DNA of 64,000 bases from Thalassovita mediterranea (GTDB taxonomy: Bacteria > Pseudomonadota > Alphaproteobacteria > Rhodobacterales > Rhodobacteraceae). Positions 17,417 to 23,339 of the stretch are shown piece by piece. The notes under the pieces were generated by a model, which was given only the letters and a program-made list of their open reading frames with translations, was not told the DNA's origin and ran no database searches. The DNA lies in contig NZ_CYSF01000002.1 of assembly GCF_001458435.1 (NCBI RefSeq), positions 1 through 64,000 of the forward strand, in the 5' to 3' direction. The position numbers and the translations under genes are program-made. Positions within the stretch are counted from its first letter, which is position 1; every line of letters begins with the position of its first letter.

Positions 17417-21837
<4,421 letters not shown>

Positions 21838-21858: not shown

Positions 21859-21880
21859 GAACATTTGTTCGCAAATGTTC
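21859..21880 (+). terminator. UUCG-loop hairpin after recG
   Basis: Arms GAACATTTG (21859-21867) and CAAATGTTC (21872-21880) enclose a TTCG tetraloop, 21 bp after the recG stop. A short T run is missing, so it may act as an mRNA 3'-end stabiliser or as a protein-binding palindrome rather than as a classical terminator. It overlaps the SOS box that follows. Confidence 0.4.
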
Positions 21881-21891
21881 TCAAAAAGTTC
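21877..21891 (+). promoter_or_regulatory. LexA (SOS) box, GTTC-N7-GTTC
   Basis: GTTC at 21877-21880 and at 21888-21891 are separated by exactly 7 bp (TCAAAAA), the alphaproteobacterial LexA consensus. It lies 64 bp upstream of the 40-residue ORF at 21956. Confidence 0.6.
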
Positions 21892-21955
21892 TTTACTCGA
21901 CTCGGGTGATATGAGAACAAAGTAGCAACACGAGAGAGGGAAGGGAGATCACACC

Positions 21956-22078
21956 ATGATCCGCGACATCAAAGCTGCCATCATTCGTTCATCTGATACC
22001 CTGCTGGCTGACACCATCGGTGCCGCCGCATTGGTCGCCATGTTTGTGATTGGGCTGCATCTGCCGCTGCTGACCTGA
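21956..22078 (+). CDS. 40-residue one-helix membrane protein behind an SOS box
   Basis: ATG 21956 follows AAGGGAGA at a good distance. The 40-residue product starts MIRDIKAAIIRSSDTLLAD and has one hydrophobic segment (IGAAALVAMFVIGLHLPLL) as its second half, with a short basic N-terminus. It looks like an inner-membrane microprotein with the N-terminus in the cytoplasm. The upstream GTTC-N7-GTTC box suggests damage induction. Similar tiny SOS-induced membrane proteins block division in Caulobacter (SidA), but no sequence link to SidA is claimed. Function unknown. Confidence 0.65.
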   Translation: MIRDIKAAIIRSSDTLLADTIGAAALVAMFVIGLHLPLLT

Positions 22079-22291
22079 TCTGTTTGCCAGACGTTTATCT
22101 GCCTGCCTGATCATGCCACCCCGGCCTGCGCCACCTGTCCCCATGCGGCGTATTTGACCTGCCTGTTTGAACCTGACGTCCTGCGTCGGATCAGCCTGTC
22201 CCACAGTGATCTGCATCCCAGCGGATCACCGGTCCAACTGGAAAGCCTCTTCCCGGGGCGGGGTGGAACTGCACATGATCATGCAACTGTA
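22079..22291. other. spacer, probable 3' UTR
   Basis: About 210 bp between the 40-residue ORF and its terminator. The open frames here have no ribosome-binding site and no recognisable product. Nothing else seen. Confidence 0.35.
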
Positions 22292-22332
22292 CCGCCGCCA
22301 TTCCTGACGGAATGTGCGGCGGCTTTTTATTT
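22292..22332 (+). terminator. intrinsic terminator
   Basis: The stem GCCGCCATTCC / GGAATGTGCGGCGGC (one bulged T) is followed by TTTTTATTTT. It is the first clear terminator after the 40-residue ORF, 215 bp downstream, so that gene would have a long 3' UTR. Confidence 0.8.
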
Positions 22333-22352
22333 TGGGGAGATGTTTGTAGGAG

Positions 22353-22447
22353 GCCCCGGATCAGGTCCGGGGCGCGACGATTGCTCATCCACCTCGGATC
22401 ACATGGGGGCAACGAGTAGCTCACCCGCCCCGGACTTGATCCGGGGC
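22353..22447. repeat. pair of inverted GC-rich palindromes
   Basis: Two 21-bp palindromes, 22353-22373 and 22427-22447, each have arms GCCCCGGA and TCCGGGGC around a 5-nt loop (TCAGG and CTTGA), in opposite orientation with 53 bp between them. GCCCCGGATCAAGTCCGGGG-type palindromes are common dispersed intergenic repeats in alphaproteobacteria. Confidence 0.75.
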
Positions 22448-22460
22448 CTCTGCGGAGCGG

Positions 22461-22913
22461 TCAGGCGCTTGCGCGGGCCTGTGCCTGATCGATGGCTTCC
22501 AGCGTTGCCTCTAGTGCCAGCATGATCGACGCGTGGCGGTTTTTATAGTCACGGGCGGGGATCAGCACCTCTAGCCCGCCAAAAGGCGCATCGGGGATCG
22601 GGCCGTCGTTTTTCAGCATCTCTTTCAGCTGATCACGCGCCGTCTCAACAGTGGCGCGATCAGTGCCGATCACTGCGGCGCCAACGATAGCGGCGGCGGC
22701 TTGGCCCAGTGCGCAGGCCTTCACATCTTGGGAAAATGCGCTGATCCGGTCCTGATCCAGCTTGACCTCAACCTGTACGCTGGATCCACACAGCGGCGAG
22801 CGGCGTTTGGCGCTGCCATCGGCATCGTCCAGCGGGTCGATATGCGGGATATCGGCGGCCAGTTCCAGAATACGGGCAGAATAGAGTTTTATCAGGTCGG
22901 TATCGCCGGACAT
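22461..22913 (-). CDS. NifU/IscU-like iron-sulphur scaffold family protein
   Basis: 150 residues from ATG 22913 (AAGGAA upstream); the frame extends further but overlaps hisI upstream sequence. Conserved points are SPLCGSSVQVEVKL and VKACALGQAAAAIVG. These align with the first two cysteines of the U-type scaffold. The third Cys, usual in RxxCxxL near the C-terminus, is replaced: the site reads RHASIML. It may be a diverged scaffold or carrier rather than a full cluster-building site. Divergent from hisI. Confidence 0.75.
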   Translation of the reverse strand: MSGDTDLIKLYSARILELAADIPHIDPLDDADGSAKRRSPLCGSSVQVEVKLDQDRISAFSQDVKACALGQAAAAIVGAAVIGTDRATVETARDQLKEMLKNDGPIPDAPFGGLEVLIPARDYKNRHASIMLALEATLEAIDQAQARASA

Positions 22914-22961
22914 GGCTTTTCCTTTGCTTGCGTTCCCCATAGATAGGAGGCTGTAGCGCAG

Positions 22962-23339
22962 ATGCAAAAGGTTTTTCCGATGGCTTTCGACCCAGCAACC
23001 CTCAAATACGACGACAAGGGGCTGATCCCCGCAATTGCGCAGGACGCCGACAGCCATGAAGTGCTGATGATGGCCTGGATGAACGCCGAAAGCGTGGCCC
23101 GCACGTTGGAAACGCGCAAGGTGACCTATTGGTCGCGTTCACGCCAAAGTTTCTGGGTGAAGGGCGAAAGTTCCGGCAACGTGCAAGAGCTGGTGGATTT
23201 CCGCTATGACTGCGACCGCGATTGCCTGCTGGTCATGGTGCGCCAGACGGGTCCGGCATGCCACACTAACCGCCGCAGCTGTTTCTACACTGCCGTGCGC
23301 GATGGCGAGGATGTGGAGCTGATGACGCCGATGGCGTGA
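22962..23339 (+). CDS. hisI: phosphoribosyl-AMP cyclohydrolase
   Basis: 125 residues, monofunctional (no HisE domain). The signature is WMNAESVARTLETRKVTYWSR, read in parts, then GESSGN and metal-binding YDCDRDCLL and ACHTNRRSCFY. It carries out the third step of histidine synthesis, opening the purine ring of phosphoribosyl-AMP. AGGAGG stands 11 bp before ATG 22962; ATG 22980 is an alternative start. It stands alone, away from other his genes, and converges on gluQ. Confidence 0.95.
   Translation: MQKVFPMAFDPATLKYDDKGLIPAIAQDADSHEVLMMAWMNAESVARTLETRKVTYWSRSRQSFWVKGESSGNVQELVDFRYDCDRDCLLVMVRQTGPACHTNRRSCFYTAVRDGEDVELMTPMA

Follow-up and report, generated by a model that had tools for sequence, protein, structure and literature searches.

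The locus described here lies in a window of 64,000 nt (the whole stretch of DNA that was analyzed: positions 1–64,000, forward strand, of contig NZ_CYSF01000002.1 in the Thalassovita mediterranea assembly GCF_001458435.1) and contains a gene for a 40-residue protein with a single predicted transmembrane (TM) helix. This gene follows recG, is preceded by two boxes of the LexA type and is followed by a structured RNA that ends in an intrinsic terminator (Table 1). The initial annotation had reported a GTTC-N7-GTTC box 64 bp ahead of the 40-residue ORF, and both were confirmed at these positions; the additional GTTC half-site, the probable second operator and the structured 3′ RNA go beyond it. 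The order of genes is almost invariant, with recG beside the microprotein ORF in 86 of 87 relatives; at the remaining locus recG went undetected by tblastn. Downstream of the 3′ RNA terminator an inverted repeat (gaggccccggatcaggtccggggc ... gccccggacttgatccggggcctc, 22345–22455) separates the locus from a convergent gene (22461–23057, minus strand) that looks scaffold-like and was judged by eye to be of the NifU/IscU type. A similar gene seems to come after the locus in many relatives.

Table 1. Features of the microprotein locus (positions within the window)
Feature	Position	Strand	Remarks
recG, 704-aa ORF	19723..21837	+	Near-invariant upstream neighbour; named from sequence and from its place in relatives
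Additional half-site 5′ of box 1	21867..21880	+	Forms GTTC-N6-GTTC with the first half of box 1
LexA/SOS box 1, GTTCTCAAAAAGTTC	21877..21891	+	64 bp ahead of the start codon (ATG, 21956)
−35-like hexamer TTTACT	21892..21897	+	From the logo; putative promoter role
Box 2, GAACAAAGTAGCAAC	21915..21929	-	Reverse complement GTTG-N7-GTTC; over the −10/start region
Ribosome-binding site AAGGGAG	21941..21947	+	From sequence
Gene for 40-aa single-TM microprotein	21956..22078	+	Translation MIRDIKAAIIRSSDTLLADTIGAAALVAMFVIGLHLPLLT
Conserved structured 3′UTR RNA	22099..22330	+	Covariance model match, covariation, fold z-score, motif statistics
Intrinsic terminator CCGCCGCCATTCC..GGAATGTGCGGCGG and T run	22292..22328	+	Sequence and fold; kept in relatives

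A conserved pair of LexA-type boxes in front of the microprotein gene

The bare GTTC-N7-GTTC pattern occurs twice in the window, where 1.84 matches are expected by chance, and 113 times in the genome compared to 84 times in a reversed control, which is a mild excess only. Box counts were rejected as evidence for this reason, and since they are near chance we took conservation as the deciding test. The exact box is present in 84 of 87 relatives that carry recG and the microprotein gene, and the other three loci keep near-matches. The 84 aligned loci share a promoter of the form TTTGTTCrCAAATGTTCTCAAAAAGTTCTTTACA-N11-AATATGAGAACAAAGnGGCAACAAA, in which the positions of box 1 reach 100%, the loci having been selected by that box. 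A second block, conserved at 92–98% per base, reads GAAC-N7-CAAC, i.e. GTTG-N7-GTTC on the opposite strand, and starts 37–39 bp after box 1 in 80 of the 84 loci (exactly 38 bp in 76). Furthermore, each position of the upstream GTTC half-site (−10 to −7) is conserved at 88–96%, and the −35-like hexamer has the family consensus TTTACA, sometimes TTGACA. In most loci box 1 begins only ∼20–40 bp after recG.

For a reverse test all GTDB contigs were scanned with the operator pair alone, which yielded at least 117 stretches, and 80 loci were fetched. recG adjoins 79 of these 80 (tblastn) and the microprotein profile matches all 80, some of them weakly (Paracoccus), so that the operator pair appears to mark the microprotein gene specifically. 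All loci whose record title names a group belong to Rhodobacteraceae, among them Ruegeria, Roseovarius, Sulfitobacter, Paracoccus, Rhodobacter and Celeribacter; a few others are metagenome bins with a label at class or phylum level only. The sets of 80 and 87 loci share some species and are thus not fully independent. Box 2 is probably a second LexA operator; its outer half is GTTG instead of the exact consensus, so that LexA binding at this site is putative, and it may be a promoter element instead. In Caulobacter ∼97% of the SOS promoters carry one LexA box only (PMC12700426), and a conserved double operator therefore suggests unusually tight repression.

Among the SOS genes of alphaproteobacteria, recA and lexA belong to the core. 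A box of the same class is found in the T. mediterranea genome ahead of lexA, recA, uvrA, an mmcB-like gene and a GGDEF gene, and uvrA and the shared core have been described as alphaproteobacterial SOS genes (PMC3323433). The microprotein gene thus has a conserved operator at its promoter in a genome that encodes LexA and carries LexA-type boxes at core SOS genes. The conserved double operator and the boxes at lexA, recA, uvrA and mmcB strongly support the original reading of SOS control, and from these sequence features we regard such control of the microprotein transcript as highly probable. The box at the GGDEF gene is AT-rich (G000 C17:217002–217016) and lies upstream of a 714-codon frame that ends in a GGDEF (diguanylate cyclase) domain, which makes a link from the SOS response to c-di-GMP possible. 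LexA sites have been predicted at c-di-GMP and pilus genes of D. shibae (PMC6473078).

The microprotein is conserved in Rhodobacteraceae

By protein search the ORF was detected in 26 of 61 relatives; a profile built from 25 homologues matched 174 of the 200 genomes of Rhodobacteraceae (close to one genome per genus) and left 26 unmatched. Among 387 genomes across the class, ∼380 of them from other families, there was no credible match outside Rhodobacteraceae; two additional hits, both partial, fall within long frames of a single distant family. The ORF is under purifying selection, as dN lies well below dS in close pairs (0.012 and 0.17, 0.054 and 1.63, 0.046 and 0.88, respectively), and the entropy at the three codon positions is 1.21/0.77/1.59. 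A Shine–Dalgarno-like motif precedes it in 70 of 71 relatives. We are nearly certain that the ORF encodes a real protein.

The consensus of 158 sequences is M-L-T-Q-I-K-x-x-L-x-R-S-x-x-T-L-L-Q-D-A-x-G-A-A-A-L-V-V-M-L-V-V-G-L-H-L-P-G-L. Both D and G of the D-x-x-G motif are fixed, the alignment being anchored on them, whereas L26, L30, L34, L36 and P37 are conserved at 85–99%. Not one of the 158 homologues has a charged residue after D19, which leaves a single uncharged TM helix. AlphaFold2 predicts helices at residues 2–11 and 13–39 (pLDDT 92). Searches of Pfam, NCBIfam, PHROGs, PADLOC and PDB sequences returned no match to the microprotein. The uncharged TM helix of all 158 homologues and the predicted all-helical fold support the membrane microprotein proposed at the outset. 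The conserved residues D19, G22, L26, L30, L34 and P37 occupy one face of the helix, and this one-sided conservation suggests a helix–helix interface with a partner instead of a non-specific pore. In two Paracoccus loci (L170 and L196) the protein is shortened to ∼31–33 residues and the N-terminal amphipathic helix is gone; in a third (L186) the N-terminus differs. All three retain the conserved TM part, which points to this part as the minimal functional part.

A structured RNA follows the microprotein gene

The region after the stop codon contains elements common to the relatives, namely a TTTCTGCCTGC motif, a long closing helix, the hairpin GCATC[CUGUCCCAA]GATGC, further hairpins with CUGCCUGUCC and CUGCCUC, and a GC-rich terminator. 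The RNA of the window has CUGCCUGC at the 5′ side, a long closing helix and inner hairpins with CUGUCCCC, CUGCCUG, CCUGUCCC and GCCUCUUCC motifs, and its fold has an energy of −101 kcal/mol (z = −4.1). RNAalifold missed the closing helix when applied to the whole diverse set, owing to misalignment, and a 16-sequence seed solved this. Covariation was tested on a 16-sequence MAFFT alignment that was not fitted to the structure: two-sided changes occur at 15 of 19 pairs and 88.6% of the cells are paired, a result that none of 500 shuffles reach, and pairing drops to 27–43% in slid controls. In a fitted alignment of 56 sequences, 196 cells carry two-sided changes compared to 41 in shuffles. Furthermore, G-U pairs (48) outnumber A-C mismatches (17), which identifies the sense strand as the folded strand. 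The covariance model matches 56 of 86 loci, the seed sequences among them by construction, and 47 of the 80 loci obtained by the operator alone; where found, the RNA is present in one copy per genome. The window's own match (22096–22221) is weak, with E-values of ∼2e-4 to 3e-3 depending on the search.

The loops of this RNA are rich in one type of motif. CUGYC occurs 302 times compared to 59 in shuffles, and CUGUCCC 86 times compared to 2.3. Motifs of the CUGYCY type, about four per RNA, are presented in loops; their unpaired probability is 0.76, that of the rest of the core 0.35, and the value is higher for the motifs in 70 of 70 sequences. In Rfam 15 nothing relevant matched the locus, with E-values of up to 5 allowed. 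An Rfam assignment was rejected, as there were weak spurious hits only, mainly on the downstream inverted repeat, which accounts for the miRNA matches. We consider it very probable that the 3′ RNA is a functional structured RNA, and it may represent half of the function of the locus.

Screens of leader sequences, in the own genome and in 15 genomes, gave no convincing conserved target of the 3′ RNA. Sites of the type GGGACAGG..ATG in the own genome were mostly internal matches, and a screen for GGGACAGGCAG..ATG in 15 genomes returned no recurrent gene and the start of dnaB in one genome only. As a separate observation, dnaB leaders of Rhodobacteraceae (L286–L316) tend to have GGGGACA(G)/GGGGCAG instead of a canonical Shine–Dalgarno sequence, a feature absent from the other alphaproteobacterial families sampled.

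DISCUSSION

Computation shows a double operator, an ORF that is coding, a structured RNA with loop motifs and the linkage of all these elements. The unit that they form would be a monocistronic SOS transcription unit of Rhodobacteraceae, which LexA, bound to two operators flanking the promoter, would hold tightly off and which RecA-stimulated cleavage of LexA would switch on; LexA binding and induction by DNA damage are very likely, as we infer. The transcript of ∼0.4 kb would carry two conserved products. One of them is a candidate inner-membrane protein of 40 residues that is likely to insert with the N-terminus inside; its N-terminal helix would be amphipathic and cytoplasmic, and its TM helix is uncharged. 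The conserved face of the TM helix could dock onto a partner in the membrane and thereby delay division during repair; as with SidA, this partner would most likely belong to the late divisome. The other product would be the terminator-ended structured RNA, which would most likely act in trans, its C-rich CUGYCY loops pairing with purine-rich leader sequences or binding an RNA-binding protein. That the locus is a LexA-repressed transcript for an uncharged single-helix inner-membrane microprotein and a 3′ regulatory RNA has in our judgement about an even chance of being correct. The more specific version, a dual-function SOS transcript throughout the family in which the microprotein blocks division or targets the membrane otherwise and a trans-acting sRNA reprograms translation in response to DNA damage, possibly including that of dnaB, is put forward tentatively.

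The properties of the microprotein have to be weighed against other functions of small SOS-controlled peptides. A toxin of the TisB/DinQ sort would lower the membrane potential and induce dormancy, with the operator and the RNA structure limiting leakiness, and a small single-helix peptide under SOS control, a very tight-looking repression and a highly structured mRNA would all fit such a role. However, charged and polar residues are reported to matter in TisB (PMC11449926), and the TM helix found here is without a charged or polar face, with no charged residue after D19 in any of the 158 homologues. One conserved face is also what a binding interface would be expected to have. No conserved antisense RNA was seen in the sequences, the gap between recG and box 1 is short in most loci, and the folded strand of the 3′ RNA is the sense strand. 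We consider a membrane-damaging toxin unlikely. A binding interface would equally suit another inner-membrane protein such as a sensor kinase, a transporter, a protease or a cell-wall enzyme, which the microprotein would modulate in place of the divisome. Binding to transporters or kinases is common among bacterial microproteins. The conserved uncharged helix face is compatible with this reading, and signalling genes of Rhodobacteraceae appear linked to LexA, as seen in the box at the GGDEF gene and in the predictions for D. shibae (PMC6473078). We rate such a partner as possible, at somewhat less than an even chance, and give the same weight to the divisome as the target; a SidA-like block of division is a plausible analogy.

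For the 3′ RNA the main alternative is a role in cis only, in which it would control the stability or the translation of the microprotein mRNA and regulate no other genes. The RNA is always attached to the ORF in a single copy, no shared target was found, and the structure could merely protect the mRNA; on the other hand, about four copies of one loop motif look like binding sites. The ribosome-binding site pairs more weakly with the own 3′ RNA than with the RNA of other species (−20.7 compared to −21.7), and with 1998 of 2000 permutations at or below the observed value the deviation has the opposite direction, so sequestration of the ribosome-binding site is not supported. We judge a purely cis-acting element to be a minority possibility, and the chances that the RNA acts in trans to be evenly divided. 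The lead towards dnaB, which encodes the replicative helicase, would make the RNA a replication brake that represses dnaB through the CUGUCCCC loop. GGGACA or GGGGCA is present in the dnaB leaders of 14 of 28 Rhodobacteraceae genera compared to 2–4% of background leaders, in 0 of 19 leaders from other alphaproteobacterial families, and the own dnaB leader carries GGGGACA. However, this lead was chosen post hoc on the basis of a single hit out of 18 to the pattern, exact complementarity between dnaB leader and RNA of the same genome does not exceed background in length (median 0.46), and the motif may just be an inherited Shine–Dalgarno variant. Repression of dnaB by the RNA is thus very unlikely in our view.

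Within the open-licence literature we found no description of this locus and no SOS division checkpoint of the SulA or SidA type for Rhodobacteraceae. The microprotein locus would be a near-universal candidate for such a checkpoint in this family, and it is easy to delete. Should the 3′ RNA act in trans, the SOS regulon of alphaproteobacteria would include an sRNA, and DNA damage would be connected to the control of translation. One transcript may thus carry two damage-response products that appear undescribed, and owing to its conserved 3′ RNA the locus is of greater interest than the initial annotation held.

The C-rich loops of CcsR, an sRNA of Rhodobacter, resemble those of the 3′ RNA. UdsC, SorX and CcsR (PMC9779115, PMC8625941), together with the coding RNA Pos19 (PMC5036791), resemble the present case in that the 3′ portion of an mRNA for a small protein is, or could be, regulatory. 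However, these RNAs are controlled by RpoH or RpoE, whereas the RNA described here is ∼200 nt long, has CUGYCY loops and putative SOS-type control, and is without an Rfam family. UdsC of R. sphaeroides (67 nt, RpoHII-dependent) was checked as a possible identity of the 3′ RNA and is a different RNA.

SidA of Caulobacter, a protein of 29 aa that binds FtsW (PMC4211646), shares with the microprotein the LexA-type control in an alphaproteobacterium and the form of a tiny single-TM inner-membrane protein, here seen as an operator and an uncharged TM helix with a predicted localization. In contrast to SidA, the microprotein occurs in another bacterial family, has 40 aa, is linked to recG in a near-invariant manner and comes with a double operator and a conserved 3′ RNA. 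YneA of B. subtilis, which has been shown to act on FtsW (PMC13396833), and SosA of S. aureus (PMC6851548) are likewise small, SOS-induced, membrane-bound division inhibitors; they come from unrelated bacteria, and a division role of the microprotein would be an analogy. TisB/istR-1 and DinQ/agrAB of E. coli (PMC11449926, PMC3567139) also combine an SOS-controlled tiny membrane peptide with a structured transcript, but here the helix is uncharged, no antisense antitoxin is seen and the structure lies in the 3′ UTR with repeated loop motifs. We claim membership in none of these groups; by analogy, the microprotein appears most like SidA, YneA and SosA, and the RNA like the 3′UTR-derived sRNAs of Rhodobacter.
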